A DNA stretch of 20,667 nucleotides from a virus, in IMG/VR virus record IMGVR_UViG_3300031973_001272, positions 1-20,667 of that record; one strand, written 5' to 3'. The first letter of the stretch is position 1; each line of letters begins with the position of its first letter. Below, piece after piece: positions 1,116 through 11,690 of this stretch. The notes below the pieces were generated by a model. That model was not told the origin of the DNA and ran no database searches. It saw only the letters and a list, made by a program, of their open reading frames with translations. The position numbers and the translations under genes were made by a program.

Positions 1116-1633
1116 AAAAGTTATTGTTTTTGGTTTTAGCAATTGTTTTTCCTCAGCTGGCTTTGGCTGAGGGTGTGGCGTGCGTTTCTGTTACGCCAAC
1201 GATAGACACATCCGCTTATGCAGCGGGCGATCTTATGGGGACCAAGCAGACGCTTGCGGGCCTGTTAGATCCGAACGTTGGTTCTGGACACGTAATTTCA
1301 GTGACAGTATCAGACAAGGCGGCGCAAGCAATCGACCTCGATTATGTGCTGTTTACTCAGGACCCCACGAGCACGACGTTTACGGATCAAGCAGCATTCG
1401 ATCCGGCTGATGCGGATCTCCCGTATATCATGCCAGCAATCAACCTAGGATCCTCCTCGCGGTTCGCGTTTAGCGATAACAGCACCCACTACGTAGGCTC
1501 TCTTGCTTTGCCTGTGCAGGTAACGGGCACGGGCTCAAAGTCAACGCTATACGGCGCGCTGGTTGCTCGTGGTGCTTTTACGGCAGCAGCTTCAAGCGAC
1601 GTGACTGTTACGGTGTGCGTATTTAGGGATTAA
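1112..1633 (+). CDS. Virion-like beta protein with Sec signal peptide
   Basis: This 173-residue protein begins with a textbook Sec signal peptide: two lysines at 2-3, a hydrophobic core from about 4 to 13 and an ALA motif at 17-19, predicting cleavage before Glu20. The mature part (VTPTIDTSAYAAGD, then VSDKAAQAIDLDYVLF, FTQDPTSTTFTD and LYGALVARG) resembles a family of small beta-rich phage structural proteins that normally lack a signal. Two cysteines, Cys24 near the new N-terminus and Cys169 near the C-terminus, could form a disulfide in an oxidising compartment (inference). The start is ATG 1112, overlapping the fibre stop as ATGA, and the stop TAA overlaps the terminase ATG. It may be a fibre accessory protein matured in the periplasm, or an exported protein acting on the infected cell envelope, for example in superinfection exclusion; the sequence does not decide between these. 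Confidence 0.7.
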   Translation: MKKLLFLVLAIVFPQLALAEGVACVSVTPTIDTSAYAAGDLMGTKQTLAGLLDPNVGSGHVISVTVSDKAAQAIDLDYVLFTQDPTSTTFTDQAAFDPADADLPYIMPAINLGSSSRFAFSDNSTHYVGSLALPVQVTGTGSKSTLYGALVARGAFTAAASSDVTVTVCVFRD

Positions 1634-3039
1634 TGATTGCTGCATGGACTCCGCAGGAAGGCCCACAACTAGACGCCATTACTGCAACGTGGTGCCGGCA
1701 ACTTTTTTACGGCGGCGCACGGGGCGGCGGGAAGTCGGATTACATGCTGGGCGATTATCTCCAGGACGTTCCAAAATACCAGAAGCACTGGCAGGGGCTT
1801 TTAATCAGGCGGCGGTTTCCACAATTCAAGGAACTAAAGCGCAGAAGCGCAGAAGTGTTTCCTCAAACGGGTGGCGAGTGGAAAGAGGGAAAGGGGGAAT
1901 GGAGATGGCCAAATGGCGCAACGCTCAGGTTTGCGTTTCTGGAGAACGACGGCGATGCGCAGAATTATCAGGGGCATCAATACACCTGGATCGGATGGGA
2001 AGAGTTAGGGAACTTTCCCAGCCCGGAACCTTACAAAATGTTGTTAGCCTGCAATCGATGGGCGGAAGCCGATATACCTACAAAACGAATAAGAGCAAGC
2101 GGAAACCCAGGCGGGCCAGGTCAAGCCTGGATAAAAACGCACTTCATCGATCACGCTCCGCTTGGTTTTGTTCCGCGGAAGTGTCCCGAGACCGGGCACG
2201 ACATAATGTTCGTTCCGGCGAGAGTATCGGACAACAAAATCCTGCTAGAGAGAGATCCAGAGTATATCAATACCCTGAGGGGCTCAGGCTCGCCCGCTCT
2301 AGTAAGGGCTTGGCTGGACGGGGATTTCAACGCAGTAGTTGGCGGATATTTTCCCGAGTTTGGCGGAAAGCACATATTGGATCCATTCGAGATTCCTTCA
2401 CACTGGACGCGCTTTCGGGCCATCGATTGGGGATCTTACAGACCGTTTGTTGTGCTGTGGTGCGCTGTATCAGACGGATCTATTCCTCGATATCCGCCAA
2501 ATACCATTATTGTGTATCGCGAATGGTACGGGGGAAGTGAGCCGAATGTTGGTCTTAAGCTTTCAAGTAAGGAGGTTGCAGAAGGAATTAAAGATAGGCA
2601 GGCAAAGGGCGAGCAAATCTCTTATTCGGTTATCGACCCTGCCGCGTTTAATTCCGATGACGGACCTTCGACAGGCGAGCGCCTCACTAATTACGGCGTA
2701 TCGTGCCATCCCGCGGACAATAAACGAGTTGTTGGGTGGCAACGCATTAGGGATCGCCTTCGTGGAATCGATGGCAAGCCCATGCTCTACGTCTTTTCTA
2801 CTTGCCTCAACACTATCAGAACTATTCCGTCACTTCAGCACGACGAGCGAAAACCCGAAGACGTTGACACCGAAGGGGACGACCACTGCGCAGACGCCCT
2901 CAGGTACGGGTGTATGTCGCGTCCTTATACTCCCGAGCGCCCGAAGGAAGACGAACCGATTAGAACATTAAAGGAAATGACATACGGCGAGCTAATAAAA
3001 CTTAATCCGACAAGGCGCGCAGGTCACACAAGGTTATGA
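1633..3039 (+). CDS. terL: Terminase large subunit (DNA packaging ATPase/nuclease)
   Basis: This 468-residue protein is the motor that pumps DNA into the prohead through the portal and cuts the concatemer. The ATPase domain shows Walker A GARGGGKS at 28-35, a Walker B-like strand ending WEEL (Glu123 in the usual Asp place, Glu124 as catalytic acid), and the coupling motif SGNPGG at 156-161. The C-terminal RNase H-like nuclease has its three acidic sites: Asp265 in AIDWG, Asp335 in VIDP and the Asp416/417 to Asp421 group in DDHCADALRY. Length is normal for the family. It starts at an ATG overlapping the upstream TAA, with AGGGA 3 bases before it, and its TGA overlaps the portal ATG. No terminase small subunit is seen beside it in the window. 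Two long open frames inside it in other frames (1644-2540 and 2339-2971) are read as shadows. Confidence 0.97.
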   Translation: MIAAWTPQEGPQLDAITATWCRQLFYGGARGGGKSDYMLGDYLQDVPKYQKHWQGLLIRRRFPQFKELKRRSAEVFPQTGGEWKEGKGEWRWPNGATLRFAFLENDGDAQNYQGHQYTWIGWEELGNFPSPEPYKMLLACNRWAEADIPTKRIRASGNPGGPGQAWIKTHFIDHAPLGFVPRKCPETGHDIMFVPARVSDNKILLERDPEYINTLRGSGSPALVRAWLDGDFNAVVGGYFPEFGGKHILDPFEIPSHWTRFRAIDWGSYRPFVVLWCAVSDGSIPRYPPNTIIVYREWYGGSEPNVGLKLSSKEVAEGIKDRQAKGEQISYSVIDPAAFNSDDGPSTGERLTNYGVSCHPADNKRVVGWQRIRDRLRGIDGKPMLYVFSTCLNTIRTIPSLQHDERKPEDVDTEGDDHCADALRYGCMSRPYTPERPKEDEPIRTLKEMTYGELIKLNPTRRAGHTRL

Positions 3040-5195
3040 GAGTAAAGAAAGAAAAAGACGAGGAAAAGTCATCAAAGGACGCAAAGCCGACCGGCGAATA
3101 TCGGCGCTATACCACAGAGGTAAAGTTAGCCGAACGCGAGTTTCAGGACTATATCGAGCGCTGCAAGAAAATTGTAAAGCGCTATCGGGATGAAGATAGA
3201 AAGGGGCAGGGTAGCGACGACTTGCCAGCTAGATTCAACTGCTTGTGGTCAAACACTGAGACCCTAGCGCCTGCCCTATATTCAAGAACTCCCAACGTTC
3301 AGGTTGATAGACGCTTTAAGGATTCCGATCCTGTGGGCAGGGCAGCGTGCCAAATTTGGGAAAGAGCAACACAATTCGCGCTTGATAACTACGATTTTGA
3401 TGGAACCATGCGCGCGGTCCTTAAGGACTATCAGCTATGCGGGCGTGGAACCGCATGGATCCGCTACGAACCAGCCGTTGAAGACGATGGCATTAGCTAT
3501 CAAGAAGTAAGCTGTGACCACGTGCATTACCGCGATTTTGGTCATATGCCAGCGAAGCAATGGCGCAACGTTCGCGGCGTTTGGCGTAAGATATATCTAA
3601 CCCGCAAACAGCTTAAGCAGCGTTTTGGTAAGATCGGCGCAAAGGTTCCGCTCGATTGGTCGCCTATGGATTCCGGCATGGGGCGGGATACAGACGATAG
3701 TAAAGAAAACAAGCAGGCGTGTGTATATGAGTATTGGGATGCCGACAACATGCGAGTTGTTTGGTTTTCAAAGGGATATACAGATGGTTTATTAGACAAC
3801 ATTGAAGACCCTCTTGGGCTTCATGATTTCTTCCCAACTCCTAAGCCACTGTTCGGAACAACTACAACAGACTCCCTCATTCCTATTCCCGATTATGCAT
3901 TGTATCAGGACCAAGCGAGAGAGCTTGATGTTTTGACTATGAAAATCGCGCTCCTTGAAGACGCGATTCGAATGGTTGGTTTCTACGACGGAACTTACAC
4001 GTCAGAGATGAATAGTCTCTATTCAAACCCACGCACGAACGAAATGATTCCGATCCATAACTGGCAGAAGCTTCAAGCGGCAGGCGGGATGAAGGGAATA
4101 GCCGAGTGGATGAGTATAAAAGAAATTATTGAAGCGCTCTCGGCGCTCTATAATGCGCGCGATAAAGTTAAGCAGGACATGTATGAGATTACTGGCGTTG
4201 CAGACGTAATTCGCGGCGCTAGTTCTATGGGGTCTGCGCCAGTTACGGCGACAGAGCGGAGAATACAGGGGCAATTCGCAACCCTGCGATTACAAGATAA
4301 GCAGAAGGACGTAGAGCGGTATGCGCGGGATTTAATCGCCCTACAAGGCGAGGTTATAGCAGAGCACTTCGAGCCGGAAATATTAGCGGCAATGACTGGC
4401 TACGACATATCACAGCCAGACATACAGCAAGTTTTTATGCCAGCTATTCAGCTGCTCAAGAACGACCCAATGCGATCTTTTAGAATTAGCCTCGAAACAG
4501 ATTCTATGATCGCGGTCGATGATGCATACGAGAAACAGCAGACAAACGAGTTTATGCAGATGTTCGGCCAGGTAATGCAGGGATCTATGCAGGCGGTGAT
4601 GCAAATGCCTGTTCTAGCTCCGATGTTTGCGGAGGCAATGCTTTTTTGCACTAGACGATTCAAGGCCGGCCGCGCACTAGAGACTGCCATCGAGCAAGGT
4701 ATGCAGAGCCTTAATCAAATGGCACAGCAATCAATGAGCCAGCCGAAACAGGATCCTGAAGTTTTGAAAGTTCAGGCGAGAGCACAACTCGAACAGCAGG
4801 ACGCCCAAAACAAATGGCAGCTTTCGCAAGCAGAGAGCCAGAACAAATTGGCGCTCGCCCGCGATGAAATGAATCAGCGAATGCAGCTTGAGATGGAGAA
4901 GTTTAAGCAAGAGGTGGCGCTCGAATGGCAGAAAGCCGCGGCTGATATCAAGGTTGCGGAGACCAAGGCGGTTAGCGAGTTGAAGCTAAAAGAAGCGGAG
5001 ATTAGCCAGAAAGAGCGAGTAGAAACTAGAAAAGCGGTCCTTGGCGCAGGCATAAAAGATTTGCACGCCCTACCAGACGGAACGCTAACAACTCGCCCAA
5101 CAATCATTAAAGAAGGCACGTTCGACTATGACGCCAAAACAGGGCGCCGAAAGGTTGTGATTATCGAGCGACCGCTAGAGGGTAACGTAGGATGA
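3036..5195 (+). CDS. Portal protein (P22-type, long form)
   Basis: This 719-residue protein forms the dodecameric ring at one capsid vertex through which DNA enters and leaves, and is the docking site for terminase and the adaptor. A basic/acidic N-terminus is followed by the family signature NCLWSNTETLAPALYSRTP at about residues 68-86, and by the characteristic GVADVIRG at 387-394 followed by a Thr/Glu-containing stretch (APVTATERRIQG) in the wing/crown transition. From about 560 to 665 the sequence is a Gln/Glu/Lys/Ala-rich helix with heptad character, matching the long C-terminal barrel of P22-like portals that projects into the capsid. A short C-terminal tail follows. The gene overlaps terminase by ATGA with AAGG just upstream, and its own TGA overlaps the next ATG. 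Confidence 0.94.
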   Translation: MRVKKEKDEEKSSKDAKPTGEYRRYTTEVKLAEREFQDYIERCKKIVKRYRDEDRKGQGSDDLPARFNCLWSNTETLAPALYSRTPNVQVDRRFKDSDPVGRAACQIWERATQFALDNYDFDGTMRAVLKDYQLCGRGTAWIRYEPAVEDDGISYQEVSCDHVHYRDFGHMPAKQWRNVRGVWRKIYLTRKQLKQRFGKIGAKVPLDWSPMDSGMGRDTDDSKENKQACVYEYWDADNMRVVWFSKGYTDGLLDNIEDPLGLHDFFPTPKPLFGTTTTDSLIPIPDYALYQDQARELDVLTMKIALLEDAIRMVGFYDGTYTSEMNSLYSNPRTNEMIPIHNWQKLQAAGGMKGIAEWMSIKEIIEALSALYNARDKVKQDMYEITGVADVIRGASSMGSAPVTATERRIQGQFATLRLQDKQKDVERYARDLIALQGEVIAEHFEPEILAAMTGYDISQPDIQQVFMPAIQLLKNDPMRSFRISLETDSMIAVDDAYEKQQTNEFMQMFGQVMQGSMQAVMQMPVLAPMFAEAMLFCTRRFKAGRALETAIEQGMQSLNQMAQQSMSQPKQDPEVLKVQARAQLEQQDAQNKWQLSQAESQNKLALARDEMNQRMQLEMEKFKQEVALEWQKAAADIKVAETKAVSELKLKEAEISQKERVETRKAVLGAGIKDLHALPDGTLTTRPTIIKEGTFDYDAKTGRRKVVIIERPLEGNVG

Positions 5196-6607
5196 GCTAT
5201 TCAAGCGTAGGTTATACTGAGGGATCGGGTAAGGACGTAAAAACCGATGTTGTCGCCGGCAAGGAAGTTCAGTTTGTAAAAATTGCGACAGGCGGCGAAG
5301 GAGTAGCGACCGAGTGGGACGGAAGCGTAAGCATTTCCGGCTCCGTACTTCCCACGGGCGCGGCGACAGTGTCGCAGCAAACAACGCAAACGGCGCTGCT
5401 ATCAAGTATCGAGGTTTATGCGGCAGATACGGCAACGTCGGCAAACCAAGCAACAGAGATTACTCACCTTGGCGACATTAGCAACGCGCTTGTCGACATT
5501 CCTTCAACGATGGCGGTATTCGATAACACCGGTATCGGAACATATGGCCTTTCTGTAGCAGGCATTAGGCGCGATGCTGAGACTTCTCCTGTATCTGCAG
5601 ACGGAGATGCTCACCCTTTTGTTTTTAACGACTTTGGCCGGCTTAAAGTTAGCACGCTTCCCGCGCCGGTAAACTCAACCGTTGATACTATTACCTCTAA
5701 CGGTGACACGGTAGTTGTTGATACTACGCAGTGTAGTAACGTTACCTGCTATTGCACAGGAACGTTTTCAACTATCAATTGCACGTTCGAAGGCTCCGTT
5801 GATGGAACGAACTGGTTTGGTGTTCAAGCGGTTCGGACTAACGCCAATACAGTGGAACTAACAACGGGTAACCTTTCCGCCGCTCCGGCTTACGGATGGG
5901 AGCTTAGCGTCAACGGTCTATACCGTTGCCGGGTAAGAGCAACTGCTTATACCTCTGGAACGCAAACCTGGACTTTCTTGCCAGGGATTTATGCGACCGA
6001 ACCCATTCCGGCGATACAAACGCACGCGGTGACGATATCGTCTGGAACCGTTACTACGGTTTCCTCGGTATCGGCAATTACTGCCGGTGTCGGAGCGACA
6101 AACTTAGGTAAGGCCGAGGATGCGATAGCGGCGTCTGGCGATACTGGCGTAGCGGTTTGGGGCGTGCGGCGAGATACCCCAGCCAGTAACGTTTCTGCGG
6201 CAGGGGACTATGCCGAGTTTGGAATCAGTGGTCAGGGCGCTGCATGGACAAGTTCAACCCCGTCTATTGGTGGTGGTTGGACGCCGTATAAATTACTCTC
6301 GGCGGCGTCTACAAACGCAACAAGCTTAAAAGCTTCGGCTGGCACGCTTGGTAGTTTTTATGTATTCAACACAACATCATCGTTTAAGTATCTCAAGCTT
6401 TACAACAAGGCGAGTGCGCCGACAGTGGGAACCGATACCCCGGTGCACGTTATTCCTATCCCTGCTAGCTCCGGCGCCACGCACGAATGGGCAAACGGCT
6501 TGAAGTTTTCGACGGGCATTGCGTTCGCAATAACAGGAGGCGTTGCCGATTCCGACACTACCGCCGTAGCTGCGAATGACGTCGTAGTTAACCTTGGGTG
6601 GATCTAA
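5192..6607 (+). CDS. Modular beta-rich virion protein (probable fibre or surface protein)
   Basis: This 471-residue protein is rich in Thr, Ser, Ala, Gly and Val, with almost no charged clusters, as in phage adhesion proteins. It contains two copies of a module with the core GIRRD/GVRRD, preceded by a Gly-Thr/Gly-Val strand and followed by VSADGDAH or VSAAGDYA, at about residues 107-160 and 308-350. Between them lies a beta domain with FEGSVDGTNW, resembling an adhesin or lectin-like sandwich. The C-terminal 105 residues (from about 368) form another recognisable phage domain: AASTNATSLKAS, then YLKLYNKASAPTVGTDTP and a final NDVVVNLGWI strand. These modules are known from phage tail and virion proteins, so a virion surface role is well supported while the exact site is not. 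The start overlaps the portal TGA; the TAA overlaps the ATG of the next gene. Confidence 0.75.
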   Translation: MSYSSVGYTEGSGKDVKTDVVAGKEVQFVKIATGGEGVATEWDGSVSISGSVLPTGAATVSQQTTQTALLSSIEVYAADTATSANQATEITHLGDISNALVDIPSTMAVFDNTGIGTYGLSVAGIRRDAETSPVSADGDAHPFVFNDFGRLKVSTLPAPVNSTVDTITSNGDTVVVDTTQCSNVTCYCTGTFSTINCTFEGSVDGTNWFGVQAVRTNANTVELTTGNLSAAPAYGWELSVNGLYRCRVRATAYTSGTQTWTFLPGIYATEPIPAIQTHAVTISSGTVTTVSSVSAITAGVGATNLGKAEDAIAASGDTGVAVWGVRRDTPASNVSAAGDYAEFGISGQGAAWTSSTPSIGGGWTPYKLLSAASTNATSLKASAGTLGSFYVFNTTSSFKYLKLYNKASAPTVGTDTPVHVIPIPASSGATHEWANGLKFSTGIAFAITGGVADSDTTAVAANDVVVNLGWI

Positions 6608-6978
6608 TGGCCTCACTTGAGCAAATCGCACTTGCGCTAGATGCGGTGCGAAACCTGCAAAACCTACGCCGCGATATTAAAGCAAACGCGGCGGAGTACG
6701 AAAAACGGATACTGGCAGGACAGGCGGAAGAAGAAGTTTTGCTGCTCGCGAAAAAAGACGCCGAAGAATACGAGCGGCGTGTTTCTTGGCATTCCGAGGG
6801 CGACGTATCTCTAGACCTAGAGGCCGGTATCGCGGCACTCGGAATTGAAGATTACGCAGCAGAGCTTTCCGAGCTATCCGCCAAGGCGTCTGGTCAAAGA
6901 CAGGCCCCAAGCCTTGAAACAATAAAGGCGGGGGCGCTCGAACTCGCGGAGAGAAAGACTCTTTTTAAGGCTAAATAA
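6607..6978 (+). CDS. Small helical protein of unknown function
   Basis: This 123-residue protein is predicted from composition to be almost wholly alpha-helical, with many Ala, Glu, Leu and Arg residues and amphipathic stretches such as LRRDIKANAAEYEKR. I do not recognise a family. The ATG at 6607 is preferred because it overlaps the previous TAA (TAATG) with a GGGTGG ribosome-site-like stretch a few bases upstream; a GTG nine bases earlier (6598) is in frame but less likely. It is followed without a gap by the duplicated nucleotidyltransferase-like gene, so the two are probably co-translated and might act together, which is inference from spacing only. Confidence 0.7.
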   Translation: MASLEQIALALDAVRNLQNLRRDIKANAAEYEKRILAGQAEEEVLLLAKKDAEEYERRVSWHSEGDVSLDLEAGIAALGIEDYAAELSELSAKASGQRQAPSLETIKAGALELAERKTLFKAK

Positions 6979-7671
6979 ATGGCGCGAATACTCGACACCA
7001 TTCCTGCCGCTGCGGAGTTACCACCCAAGATTACTTTTGCGGACTTAGTGCCACTACTGCCCGACTCGATCCCATACGAATATAACGTGTATGTCGGCGG
7101 CGATTTAGCTAAATACGGCGCAACGTCAAGGACCATTATTTTCTTAATGGAAAACCGCATTGAGCCAATAGCGGAAGTAATGGGCTATTTCAACGATCTA
7201 GTTTCGCCGACTGGTCTTGCGGGAACCGTAACTAATAATCTCTATAATCCAGAGTCACCGGCTATCCGCCTTTATTCAAACGGAAGGCTAATAATAGATC
7301 GCCAAACGCTTGCGTTTACAGAACTGCCTACGCCGATACAGCAGCGCCCCGAAGTTACAATAGAGGACGTTATTTCTAAGCTTCCGGCGGAAATCCCTTT
7401 TGCTGAAACAATATATTTAACTGGCTCTGTTGCTCTTAATGGCTGGAGCGCCAACGATGTAGATTTTCTCGTTGGAGACGCCAACGTATCTAAGGGCGCG
7501 GTTCAGTTTAACGGGATGCAAGATCGGGAGAGGCTCGACGAAGTTCGGCAATATTTTTCTCAGTCCATAGGCTGGAAAGTTCACGCCGGTAGAAAAATCA
7601 TGCATGAGCGTGAGCCTGTTGTGCTTTTAAAAGTGTACGAGAATGGCTTGCTATGTCTACCGTTGCGCTAA
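6979..7671 (+). CDS. Tandem-duplicated nucleotidyltransferase-like protein
   Basis: This 230-residue protein consists of two related halves. Residues 17-57 and 125-165 align without gaps at an offset of 108, with 12 of 41 identical by my count (shared T, D, LP, IP, Y, G, A, G, FL), and the similarity continues to EVMGYF/EVRQYF and to YSNG/YENG near the end of each half. The second half carries TGS at 148-150, nine residues, then DVD at 160-162: exactly the GSx9DxD signature of polymerase-beta-type nucleotidyltransferases (family knowledge). In the first half the matching positions are GGD and Thr52-Ile53-Ile54, so both metal-binding aspartates are lost. A third carboxylate is not obvious in either half. 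A catalytic plus pseudo-domain arrangement is plausible, but activity is unproven. A good AAGG site lies 7 bases before the ATG; the 3' end overlaps the next gene by 19 bases. Confidence 0.6.
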   Translation: MARILDTIPAAAELPPKITFADLVPLLPDSIPYEYNVYVGGDLAKYGATSRTIIFLMENRIEPIAEVMGYFNDLVSPTGLAGTVTNNLYNPESPAIRLYSNGRLIIDRQTLAFTELPTPIQQRPEVTIEDVISKLPAEIPFAETIYLTGSVALNGWSANDVDFLVGDANVSKGAVQFNGMQDRERLDEVRQYFSQSIGWKVHAGRKIMHEREPVVLLKVYENGLLCLPLR

Positions 7672-8768
7672 ACCCGGTTATAGATTTATTCGTATCTCAG
7701 GGGTCTCCAACTACAAGTTATAATAGCGACTTCAGAACGATGGTTGCTTATAATAATGTGGACACGCCCACGGGCGCGGCTCGATCTTGGTTTAAATTCG
7801 ATCTCAGAACCATTCCGGTAGGCTCGACGATAACGAGTGCGACACTTACGCTAAAGACCTTCTACGCACACGATGATGTATATTCCGGCGCTCCAAACAT
7901 AGAGCTGGAGCGATCAACAAACAACGCTTGGACAACCGCACTAACCTGGAATACTCAGCCAAGCACGGTAGGCTCTCCCAGTGATACAATTAGCGGCCAG
8001 CTTATGTACACGGCCGACTTTGTTTTTACCGGCCTTGAGGCGGACGTATCAGCCGCGCTGATGTCTGGCTATTTGACATACCGCATGAAGTCAACAATCG
8101 AGACAGCAGGGCCGATCTACATGATGCATGACGTAGATTTTCCGGGCACTAACCCTGCGGTGCTGGACGTAACTTATACCGCTCCATCTACAGCGTTCGG
8201 AATAAACCATAGAGATACCAGCGGATACGTAACCGACGGCGCGGGGGAAACTTATTGTTTAGGACAAAACGATCTTTATCCGACAACTCGCGCAGGAAAA
8301 ACCTTTGGATGGGATAGCTTCGCGGACATTTCTCGAAATAGAGATAGCGCCGTGGATAGAAGACTGGCGGGCGATGCGAGAACCGATGACGCAACACAAA
8401 AGGTGTGGCGTTGCGATCATGCCGCTGGCACTTATCCAATTACGATAGCGCAGGGCTCGGCGGGCATTTTCTCTTCTAGCTATAACTACCTTGAGGTTCT
8501 AGACAACACCACAACGGTATTAACTATCGACGACACAAACGGAGTCGCCGCGGGAAACCATAACGATTCAACCGGCACTCAGTATTCTTCGGCGACCTGG
8601 CCCGGAAGCAGCGTTTCTACGAACTGCACATTCTCCAGTTCGACGATATTTGTAAAACTTGGGAAGACATCGGCGACAGGTTCATTTCATTCGTGGAATC
8701 ATATTCATGTTGGTGATGCCGTTTCAACGCCCACGCCGAAAAGAATGTTGCTTTTGGGTGTTGGATGA
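7653..8768 (+). CDS. DNRLRE-like domain virion protein (probable surface/adhesion protein)
   Basis: This 371-residue protein has two parts. Residues 1-175 resemble the DNRLRE/CBM96-type beta-sandwich: RSWFKFDLRTIPVGSTI at 44-60, ITSATLTL at 60-67, then LTWNTQPS at 97-104 and a closing VLDVTYT strand. Such domains occur on bacterial and phage surface proteins and often bind glycans. After a short link, residues 182-371 contain the acidic/basic loop NRDSAVDRRLAGDARTDD (229-246) and VWRC, a pattern I associate with phage tail-associated beta domains, ending in a Ser/Thr-rich sandwich. No catalytic site is visible. The start at 7653 lies inside the end of the upstream gene and its ribosome site is weak, so translation may depend on coupling. 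The TGA overlaps the ATG of the next gene. Confidence 0.7.
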   Translation: MSTVALNPVIDLFVSQGSPTTSYNSDFRTMVAYNNVDTPTGAARSWFKFDLRTIPVGSTITSATLTLKTFYAHDDVYSGAPNIELERSTNNAWTTALTWNTQPSTVGSPSDTISGQLMYTADFVFTGLEADVSAALMSGYLTYRMKSTIETAGPIYMMHDVDFPGTNPAVLDVTYTAPSTAFGINHRDTSGYVTDGAGETYCLGQNDLYPTTRAGKTFGWDSFADISRNRDSAVDRRLAGDARTDDATQKVWRCDHAAGTYPITIAQGSAGIFSSSYNYLEVLDNTTTVLTIDDTNGVAAGNHNDSTGTQYSSATWPGSSVSTNCTFSSSTIFVKLGKTSATGSFHSWNHIHVGDAVSTPTPKRMLLLGVG

Positions 8769-9211
8769 CCCTTTTAACGTTACTCCAGAATAGAACGGGT
8801 GGCCCAGGGCCCACACAGCCAGTCTACCCAGGCGATGGGCAGCAGGGCCCTGAAGTTCGTCGGGAGTTTAAGCTAAGAAATGAGGTTAAGCGGAAGAGGC
8901 TTCCTAAGTCTGTAGTTAAGAAGGTTAAGAAGCTTGCTAAGACCGCAGAGCCGACACTAGAGCAAGTAAGAGAAATAGCCCAAGAGGTTCTACCTCAAGC
9001 ATTCGAGATAGATTACCGGGTAATTTATCTAAACATTCTTTCGGCTTTAGGCCCGGCACTTGCCAGGATGGAAGCAGAAAACGCCATACTCGCACTAGCC
9101 GAACAGGAAAGGCAGCGGGCAATAGTGCGCGAGAAGCTCATGATCGAGCAAATAGGGCGTTATTTGGCGGAATTAGAGGAAGACGAATTGTTGCTCACCT
9201 ATCTCATGTAG
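8765..9211 (+). CDS. Small basic/helical protein of unknown function
   Basis: This 148-residue protein opens with a Pro/Gly-rich stretch (GGPGPTQPVYPGDG, about 12-25), continues with a strongly basic segment (KRKRLPKSVVKKVKK, about 42-56) and ends with long amphipathic helices rich in Glu, Ala, Leu and Arg. I recognise no family. The Pro/Gly head and helical tail would fit a small virion or assembly factor, but this is only a guess. It starts at an ATGA overlap. Its stop, TAG, is the only amber stop among the 19 complete gene ends in the window, and the next gene lies in the same frame 12 bases downstream. Confidence 0.65.
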   Translation: MTLLTLLQNRTGGPGPTQPVYPGDGQQGPEVRREFKLRNEVKRKRLPKSVVKKVKKLAKTAEPTLEQVREIAQEVLPQAFEIDYRVIYLNILSALGPALARMEAENAILALAEQERQRAIVREKLMIEQIGRYLAELEEDELLLTYLM

Positions 9212-9223
9212 GTTGTTCTGGCT

Positions 9224-9556
9224 GTGGTGGCTGTCTGGTATAGCGATAGTGTGAGCGATGAGGTTGTAAAAAAATGGATCTGTAGGGAAGCCCCTAACGG
9301 AGAAGTTCTTTTTATTCCGGTTGGAAGTCACGAGCCGGTTATTAGAACTCAAATCCTTACAGACACAATCGAACCGACGTGGCACCCGGTAACGGGTGAG
9401 TATTGCTCTAGTCGTACTGGGATGCAGAAAATCGCTAAGGCGCACGGACTTGAGGAGCTTGGAAACGAGCGCATTCAGCCGCGCAGGTATGAGCCTGATA
9501 AAAAAGCGATTCGAGAAAGGTTAATTCATGGCGCGCAGAAGCTCGGCATTAGGTGA
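9224..9556 (+). CDS. Conserved small phage protein upstream of scaffold
   Basis: This protein is 110 residues if read from GTG 9224. The second half, WHPVTGEYCSSRTGMQKI followed by AHGLEELGNE, matches a motif I recognise from small phage proteins encoded just before the scaffold gene (a residue run of the type SR..hr..LK.HG..EvGNE). Its function is not established. The start is uncertain: GTG 9224 and 9227 have no good ribosome site, and GTG 9251 would give a product beginning MSDEVVKKW. The frame is the same as that of the upstream gene, from which it is separated by a TAG, so a read-through product is possible. The 3' end overlaps the scaffold gene by 29 bases. Confidence 0.65.
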   Translation: MVAVWYSDSVSDEVVKKWICREAPNGEVLFIPVGSHEPVIRTQILTDTIEPTWHPVTGEYCSSRTGMQKIAKAHGLEELGNERIQPRRYEPDKKAIRERLIHGAQKLGIR

Positions 9557-10691
9557 AGAAATTACATTACTGGATGAATCCTATAATGAGCCAGAAGCCG
9601 AGACCGTAGACGAAGAAGAATCGCCCAGACTATCACTTCGAGAGCAGCTCGAAGCCGGATTTGACAAGATTTCAGAAAAAGACTCGGACGAATCCGAGGA
9701 TGAAGAAGATACAGACGACGCATCTGCTAGAGCAGGTCGCGCGCGAGATGATAGAGGTCGTTTCGCAAAGTCACAAGAACAACAGTCCCAAGAATCGGAA
9801 CTAGAGGCAACGACCGAGGGGCAGGATCCCGAGCTGGCTATAGAGTCGGCTCACCCTGCAACTCCCGTTTTAGCGCCCTCAGGTTGGGACGCTGAAGAGA
9901 GAGAAGCGTTTAACCAGGCCCCGCGTAAGGCTCAAGAAGCTTTCGTAAGACGGGAAACTGAACTCAGACGCGCCTTTCAACAGGCATCCGAACGTGCGTC
10001 GCATGTAGAACGAACCTGGACAGAGGTAGATCAAGCGTTAAAGCCGTTTGAGCAGCAGTTGGGTTTGGCGGGCATAAAGCCTGCGCAAGCCGTTCAGCAG
10101 CTCATGAAATGGCAGCAGTTTCTAGAGAGCGATACTGATCGCGCTCTAGTGCAGCTAGCGCAATCCTATGGCCGGACCTTTGGGCAACTTGCGCAAGTAG
10201 AGGCTCGACAGCCTCAGGTGTCGCCAGAAATGCGGGCACTTCAGCAGCAGGTACAGCAACTTAACGGACTTCTTAATCAGCAGCAGCAATTCAAGCAAGA
10301 GAGCGAAAAAGCGGCAATAGCCGCAGAAGTTCAATCTTTTTGTAACGAGACAGATGCTAACGGAAATCCGCTAAGACCGTATATAGAGCACATCATCGAA
10401 GATGTGACCCAAGTTCTCCAGTCGCTTCGGTCTTTAAAACCGCAAGCACCTGTTAGAAGCCTACTGCAAGAAGCCTACGAAAAAGCGATCTGGCTCAATC
10501 CCTCAACGAGAGAGCTAGAGATTCGACGCGCAGCACCCAAACCAGACAAACAAACGATTGAGAAGGCTCGACGCGCTCAAAAGCTTGTAAATGGCGAGGC
10601 GAGAAGTGCGGCGGGTCCAGATCGTTCCCCTAAATCTGTTCGTGATCATCTGTTGGCTAGTTGGGAAAAAATGAATCCCGGTTCGGTTTAA
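9528..10691 (+). CDS. Head scaffolding protein
   Basis: This 387-residue protein has the usual composition of a phage scaffold: a very acidic, probably disordered N-terminus (Asp/Glu/Ser runs at about 20-70), an Arg/Asp/Gly patch, then the conserved PSGWDAEEREAFNQAP segment starting at 117 and a long Gln/Glu/Ala/Arg-rich helical region (about 130-275) with poly-Gln patches. The C-terminus is basic and ends in a short helix (SVRDHLLASWEKM), the place where scaffolds typically contact coat protein. It would guide capsid assembly and leave before packaging. AAGG sits 7-8 bases before the ATG. It lies directly before the major capsid gene, which supports the call; a small palindrome covers its stop codon. 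Confidence 0.85.
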   Translation: MARRSSALGEEITLLDESYNEPEAETVDEEESPRLSLREQLEAGFDKISEKDSDESEDEEDTDDASARAGRARDDRGRFAKSQEQQSQESELEATTEGQDPELAIESAHPATPVLAPSGWDAEEREAFNQAPRKAQEAFVRRETELRRAFQQASERASHVERTWTEVDQALKPFEQQLGLAGIKPAQAVQQLMKWQQFLESDTDRALVQLAQSYGRTFGQLAQVEARQPQVSPEMRALQQQVQQLNGLLNQQQQFKQESEKAAIAAEVQSFCNETDANGNPLRPYIEHIIEDVTQVLQSLRSLKPQAPVRSLLQEAYEKAIWLNPSTRELEIRRAAPKPDKQTIEKARRAQKLVNGEARSAAGPDRSPKSVRDHLLASWEKMNPGSV

Positions 10692-10715: not shown

Positions 10716-11690
10716 ATGGCTGTTCCAAATAGTTCGTGGAGCGAGTTGGCCACGACCACAATTGAGAGCCGGACAAAAGACCTTGCAGATAACTTTTCTG
10801 TAAGCACCGCGCTTCTCTATCGACTCAAACAAAAAGGAAAACAAAAGTTCTGGACTGGTGGCACTTCCATCCTTCAAGAACTTGAGTACGCAGAAAACGG
10901 AACGTTTACCCGTTTTTCTGGATATGACGAAGTAGACATCTCGCCTTCTGACGTTTTCACGACTGCATCGTTCTCGCCTAAGCAAGCGAGCGTAGCGGTT
11001 ACGATTAGCAAGCTTGAACAGCTTCAAAACTCAGGAAAAGAGCAGATGATTGACTTGCTCGAAGCGCGAATCAGTAATGCAGAGCGTACTTTGATGCAAA
11101 ACCTTGCGCTCGATATGTATTCTGACGGGACTGCTTCCGGCGGAAAACAAATCGGCGGACTCAATCACCTTATTCCAACAGATCCAACCACTGGAACTGT
11201 TGGCGGGATCGATCGTGCAACCTGGACGTTCTGGAGACCATCTCTGTATGACTTTTCGGCGCTAACGATCACTCCAAGCGCAACGACAATTCAAGCAGCT
11301 ATGAATAAGACATATCTTGAAACGTCGCGTAATACAGACCATGTGGATCTTATCATTTTTGATAACGTCTATTATGGCTATTACTGGGCGTCACTCCAAG
11401 GAAATCAGCGTTTCGTAAACTCTAAGCTTGCTGATGCTGGCTTTGAGAACATCCGATTCATGGGCGCTGATGTTGTGTTTGATGGCGGCATCGGCGGCGG
11501 TATTAGTGCAAGTACAGGTTTCTTTCTGAACACGGACTATATCCATTTCCGACCACACGTAAACGCAAACTTTGTACCAGCAGACGAGGATCGTTATTCA
11601 GTGAACCAACTTGCAATGGTCAAGTTAATTCACTGGGCAGGTGCAATGACTATTAGTAACTCGAAGCTTCAAGCTCGAATCCAGGACTAA
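10716..11690 (+). CDS. Major capsid protein
   Basis: This 324-residue protein would form the head shell. It has signatures I know from a podovirus major capsid family, presumed to have the HK97 fold: LADNFSVSTALLYRLKQKG at 23-41, ILQELEYAENGTF at 52-64, SPSDVF at 76-81, a long helix with LLEARISNAERTLMQNL at 114-130, YSDGTASGGKQIGGL at 135-149, GTVGGIDRATW at 160-170, and near the end HFRPHVNANFVP and the VKLIHWAGAMTISN strand. The size is usual. It follows scaffold after 24 bases, with AAGAG (10707-10711) as a modest ribosome site, and precedes the decoration gene. Codon and base use look like those of its neighbours. Confidence 0.95.
   Translation: MAVPNSSWSELATTTIESRTKDLADNFSVSTALLYRLKQKGKQKFWTGGTSILQELEYAENGTFTRFSGYDEVDISPSDVFTTASFSPKQASVAVTISKLEQLQNSGKEQMIDLLEARISNAERTLMQNLALDMYSDGTASGGKQIGGLNHLIPTDPTTGTVGGIDRATWTFWRPSLYDFSALTITPSATTIQAAMNKTYLETSRNTDHVDLIIFDNVYYGYYWASLQGNQRFVNSKLADAGFENIRFMGADVVFDGGIGGGISASTGFFLNTDYIHFRPHVNANFVPADEDRYSVNQLAMVKLIHWAGAMTISNSKLQARIQD

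Follow-up and report, generated by a model that had tools for sequence, protein, structure and literature searches.

Why would a tailed phage carry, among its capsid genes, a protein that resembles two fused copies of a minimal nucleotidyltransferase (NTase), with the signature of the enzyme retained in only one of them? This question arises from a 20,667-base virus record (IMGVR_UViG_3300031973_001272), which was analysed over its full length and is referred to here as the window. The gene concerned, P0001 (6979-7671, plus strand), is an intact open reading frame with an ATG start that encodes 230 amino acids. We consider it, with a probability of roughly one half, to be a tandem MNT-like pseudo-enzyme that serves as an accessory protein with a nucleotide-binding or structural role.

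P0001 lies in a hypervariable cassette between the portal and p46-like genes

The plus strand of the window reads as a tailed-phage structural module, with genes for the terminase large subunit (1633-3039), the portal (3036-5195; PHROG 12082, E = 4e-159), a p46-like protein (9224-9556), a scaffold-like protein (9528-10691) and the major capsid protein (10716-11690; PHROG 9953, E = 7e-101). Relatives of the capsid protein are found in Myxococcus phage Mx8, Stenotrophomonas phage BUCT555 and Bradyrhizobium phage ppBjS10J-1 as well as in 71 viral contigs and 8 bacterial-genome loci, all of them proteobacterial, and the source phage is Mx8/BUCT555-like. In nearly 60 related loci that contain both the portal and the scaffold gene (some of them redundant), the portal is followed by the p46-like gene and then the scaffold. 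This synteny delimits an accessory cassette in the window that extends from the portal gene to the p46-like gene (5192-9211, plus strand). The distance from portal to scaffold in these loci is about 0.2 kb at its shortest and about 6.5 kb at its longest, and the larger gaps hold accessory genes that vary among the phages and in many cases are surface-protein-like. P0001 is a lineage-specific gene of this hypervariable cassette, and neither P0001 nor any other NTase-like gene was found in the cassettes of the relatives fetched.

In the window, the cassette encodes a surface-like protein, a 126-residue protein, P0001, a CBM96/DNRLRE-type protein and a 148-residue protein. The initial annotation had placed P0001 between a virion-surface gene and a DNRLRE gene. 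The latter (7653-8768, plus strand; Pfam PF24517, E = 2.3e-11) indeed lies directly downstream, overlapping the end of P0001 by 19 bases, whereas the virion-surface-like gene (5192-6607, plus strand) is one gene further away, separated from P0001 by the gene for the 126-residue orphan (6598-6978, plus strand), whose stop codon directly abuts the P0001 ATG. The GC content of P0001 (0.475) does not stand out from that of the other genes of the window and so gives no hint of recent acquisition from a foreign source, and its values at the three codon positions (GC1 0.57, GC2 0.39, GC3 0.47) resemble those of its neighbours.

The 126-residue orphan is a candidate partner of P0001. It gave no Pfam match at E ≤ 1 and contains an R-x4-H motif (RRVSWH) that is superficially HEPN-like and lacks the tyrosine two residues further on. 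As it has neither a family match nor the RX4HXY motif, we do not regard it as a HEPN partner, and a Pfam search likewise assigned neither neighbour of P0001 to a HEPN family. The missing HEPN gene, together with the intact reading frame, the neighbour-like GC pattern and the tight gene spacing, speaks against the idea that P0001 is what is left of an antitoxin or defence gene, acquired by the phage as the MNT half of a HEPN-MNT pair and now in decay. We therefore hold this origin to be highly improbable, even though the structures nearest to P0001 are MNT antitoxins and the cassettes of other phages are devoid of its relatives.

Several other features of these cassettes deserve mention. The C-terminal domain of the surface-like protein (residues about 350-450) is common to single genes of Caulobacter phage KSC, Synechococcus phages S-SRP01 and DSL-LC07, Arthrobacter phage Tweety19, Octadecabacter phages and others; the genome position of these genes varies among the phages, and the domain is a mobile one, probably of the virion surface. 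A scan for similar cassettes with the surface-like neighbour gave no match. Moreover, in several otherwise dissimilar cassette proteins a hydrophobic run, preceded by an acidic one, forms the extreme C-terminus (for example EEDELLLTYLM, DDDEETLLLLLG and EEEAIVSLLA). One carrier is encoded in the window (8765-9211), the others in related loci (L024:8079-8486, L046:6960-7388, L047:980-1333, L049:7378-8448, L059:6442-6846, L071:8030-8464, L078:6695-6952, L045:2838-5804, L053:1-1626 and L070:2856-4544), and this tail is perhaps a shared docking or virion-targeting signal. Finally, the related phage MW202489 carries, between terminase and portal, a gene annotated as a PhoD-like phosphatase (L084:3699-4832), another enzyme-like accessory in the structural region.

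P0001 is an internal duplication with an asymmetric motif

P0001 is the product of a tandem duplication, to a degree far beyond chance. Gapped local alignment of residues 8-106 (N-terminal copy, 7000-7296, plus strand) with residues 116-228 (C-terminal copy, 7324-7662, plus strand) scored 88, a value reached by 0 of 3000 shuffles (25.4 ± 4.3). The gapless match between residues 17-57 and 125-165 described at the outset was recovered, with 12 identities and a BLOSUM62 score of 66, and proved to be part of this longer, gapped repeat, in which a stretch of about 15 residues after the second strand of the C-copy has no counterpart in the N-copy.

The second half carries the GSx9DxD signature ascribed to it, G149-S150 being followed, after nine residues, by D160-V161-D162 (7423-7464, plus strand). 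In the first half, T52 and I54 take the place of the two aspartates, again as initially described, and the ungapped alignment additionally sets G41-D42 against the GS pair, so that the serine is lost as well. A strict version of the signature (hydrophobic-G[SG]-x8-11-DhD-hh) occurred in 13 of 20,000 shuffles of P0001 and, among the 8482 open reading frames of the fetched loci, in a single one besides P0001.

In the NTase fold, strand 2 bears two acids and strand 5 the third (PMC11646218), which in MNT sequences comes after a hydrophobic residue (VDL and similar). The alignment of the C-half with an MNT profile, described below, stops at V201, and the next residue, His202 (7582-7584, plus strand), occupies the position of the third catalytic aspartate (VDL to VHA). 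As no other acid is seen on the predicted strand holding His202 in the AlphaFold2 model of the C-half, the C-copy lacks the third acid that this strand, which follows the helix, bears in the fold. It thus keeps GS and DxD, which MntA requires for holding and transferring AMP (PMC7641770), but with an incomplete acid set. The replacement of the third acid by His202 makes full catalysis by the C-copy doubtful, and the anatomy does not favour efficient catalysis by P0001 as a whole.

Profile comparisons point to an NTase fold

P0001 matched none of the models in the Pfam, PHROG and NCBIfam libraries, and PF01909, applied to the whole record, gave no match at or above its curated cut-off of 21 bits. 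No homologue emerged from viral contigs searched with the whole protein, the C-half or the two-half alignment, from three degenerate motif scans, from genome contigs, from tblastn searches of phages (up to E = 10) and plasmids (best E = 0.8), from 398 genomes of one family, or from a phmmer search of the open reading frames of the fetched phage loci; a sequence search of the PDB returned chance matches only. The best match in the 398 genomes (E = 0.008) lay inside an apparent nitronate monooxygenase and was likewise taken as chance. In the papers searched, nothing pertinent was found on NTases within structural modules of phages.

The fold was therefore addressed with an MNT profile of 15 prokaryotic sequences taken from bacterial genomes (PF14792 was sought in 60 genomes, as material only). 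In hmmsearch, the C-half scored 9.6 bits, above all of 2000 shuffles, and P0001 ranked second among the distinct open reading frames in the set of 8482, with an E-value in that set of 3.1, which makes this a targeted test and by itself no discovery. Because the motif had prompted the NTase hypothesis, its flanks were tested separately. When the motif was kept and the flanks were shuffled, 3 of 1000 sequences reached the observed score, and masking of the motif left a match of 3.7 bits; the flanks thus add signal independently of the motif. Consistent results were obtained with hhalign, in which a profile of the two halves scored 27.6-27.8 against the MNT profile, as compared with 10.6 ± 2.1 (maximum 19.0) for 200 column shuffles and a maximum of 18.3 for 167 pairs of other phage proteins. 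Both the flank signal and this natural-protein control argue against the view that the duplication is real but produced some other alpha/beta fold, with an accidental match to GSx9DxD, a view for which the lack of a family match in any library could be cited.

MNT proteins head both structure comparisons

AlphaFold2 gave a pLDDT of 34 for the full-length protein as a single sequence. When the C-half was modelled from a two-row alignment with the N-half as the second row, confidence was middling (pLDDT 63.6, pTM 0.59), and the model, which could lean on the motif itself, shows the order helix, strand (with GS), strand (with DVD), hairpin, helix, strand, strand. For the C-half, to which this comparison applies, the NTase succession of a helix, strand 1 leading to G[GS], strand 2 with DxD and a helix is accordingly found in the sequence, in the model (pLDDT 64) and in the collinear profile alignment.

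The structure comparison that the initial annotation had proposed placed MNT structures at the top of both lists obtained for the C-half, although each score was weak. In a Foldseek search of the PDB, ranks 1-9 were entries of MntA of Shewanella, an MNT antitoxin (best E = 0.061, probability 0.84), all nine representing one protein in several crystal forms or entries, and ranks 11 and 13 were other MNT proteins; Foldseek against viral models gave no match. With VIA-align, 13 of the 14 top rows were NTases, which represent about seven distinct proteins; the first was 1no5 (HI0073; Z = 4.8 over 87 residues, rmsd 3.6). The protein 7bqc, designed de novo, was level with them (Z = 4.7), and the next unrelated natural class was ribosomal S3 (Z = 3.5). 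Singly, these matches fall below significance (best E = 0.06, Z < 5, TM 0.3-0.4), and they gain weight because they agree with the sequence tests. The fold scores are weak, given that a de novo protein equals the NTases and that KH-type domains do not score much lower, and this leaves the other alpha/beta fold mentioned above with perhaps a minor share of the probability, whereas the leading position of MNT structures in both lists argues against it. The initial proposal of an NTase-type fold with a degraded first copy thus draws support from profile, control and model evidence in combination, each comparison taken singly falling short of significance, and we conclude with moderate confidence that the C-half quite probably adopts this fold.

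A binding or structural role is favoured over catalysis

On the reading we prefer, the domain duplicated in tandem in P0001 is a minimal NTase-like one (MNT, polymerase-beta superfamily), and its two copies may pack as a pseudo-dimer. Of the site, the C-copy would retain the residues that bind phosphate and metal (G149-S150, D160, D162) without the third acid, and the N-copy would be fully degraded. With a partial site in one copy and a degraded other copy, a binding or structural role is likelier than efficient transfer, and P0001 thus most likely acts as an accessory of the virion or of virion assembly, either binding nucleotides or having a purely structural part; the virion role is suggested by the position of the gene. 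Of the two functions initially envisaged, the minimal transferase is weakened by His202 at the third-acid place, and the reuse of an old enzyme fold fits better.

The main competing proposal, which we judge unlikely though somewhat less so than an unrelated fold, sees in the C-copy a working nucleotidyltransferase that acts in trans on another protein, much as MntA polyadenylylates HepT, while the degraded N-copy would bind the substrate. The target would come from the virion or the host and might be the 126-residue neighbour. GS and DxD are kept in the C-copy alone, and MntA, a lone MNT domain, transfers AMP with these elements (PMC7641770). Furthermore, the inactive N-unit of OAS3 is required for activity (PMC7756014), inactive OAS2/OAS3 units bind RNA, and RelA/SpoT-type synthetases are enzymes despite lacking one of the three acids (PMC11646218). 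Conversely, the third acid is missing, nine residues rather than the ten of MntA separate GS from DxD, and the 126-residue neighbour, with R-x4-H instead of RX4HXY, is no recognisable HEPN protein. A more specific version, in which a virion-borne tandem NTase nucleotidylates a host or virion protein at infection and owes its specificity to the dead N-copy, as a phage counterpart of OAS3, strikes us as a long shot.

P0001 is best read as a known fold in a new arrangement. Should the fold assignment hold, a minimal NTase domain has been taken up and doubled by a phage for use as an accessory alongside its capsid genes, away from replication and defence genes and in a family absent from all databases searched, which would provide a small test case for an enzyme fold turning into a binding or structural part. 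An active P0001 would instead represent a phage-borne protein modifier of a novel type.

Comparison with known systems

NTase folds whose active site is weakened or dead are known from MAB21L1 and NF90/NF45, which, unlike P0001, are eukaryotic and have no demonstrated sequence relation to it. The palm of the DNA polymerase X family (Pol beta) has the GS-x9-DxD spacing, and P0001 shares both this spacing and the order of the palm elements, whereas it lacks the fingers, the thumb and the lyase domain as well as the third aspartate and a Pfam profile match. The spacing had led us to consider a polymerase X palm as a reading of P0001, and the Pfam profiles gave it no support.

The vertebrate 2'-5' oligoadenylate synthetases OAS2 and OAS3 consist of tandem NTase units of which the C-terminal one alone is catalytic (PMC7756014). 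P0001 resembles them in its tandem units and in the C-terminal location of the best-kept catalytic residues; however, the OAS units are far larger, their C-unit is fully catalytic, and no sequence relation has been shown.

With respect to MNT proteins and MntA antitoxins (PF01909; HI0073, SO_3165), P0001 differs in its two fused copies, its GSx9DxD in place of the GSX10DXD motif of MntA (PMC7641770), its histidine for the third acid, its lack of a Pfam match and its location in a capsid gene cassette rather than next to a HEPN gene with RX4HXY, the partner in MntA-HepT. Nevertheless, these proteins provide its best structural matches, and they share with it the size of a single copy (about 110 residues) and the succession helix, strand 1, GS, strand 2 with DxD, helix and strand.
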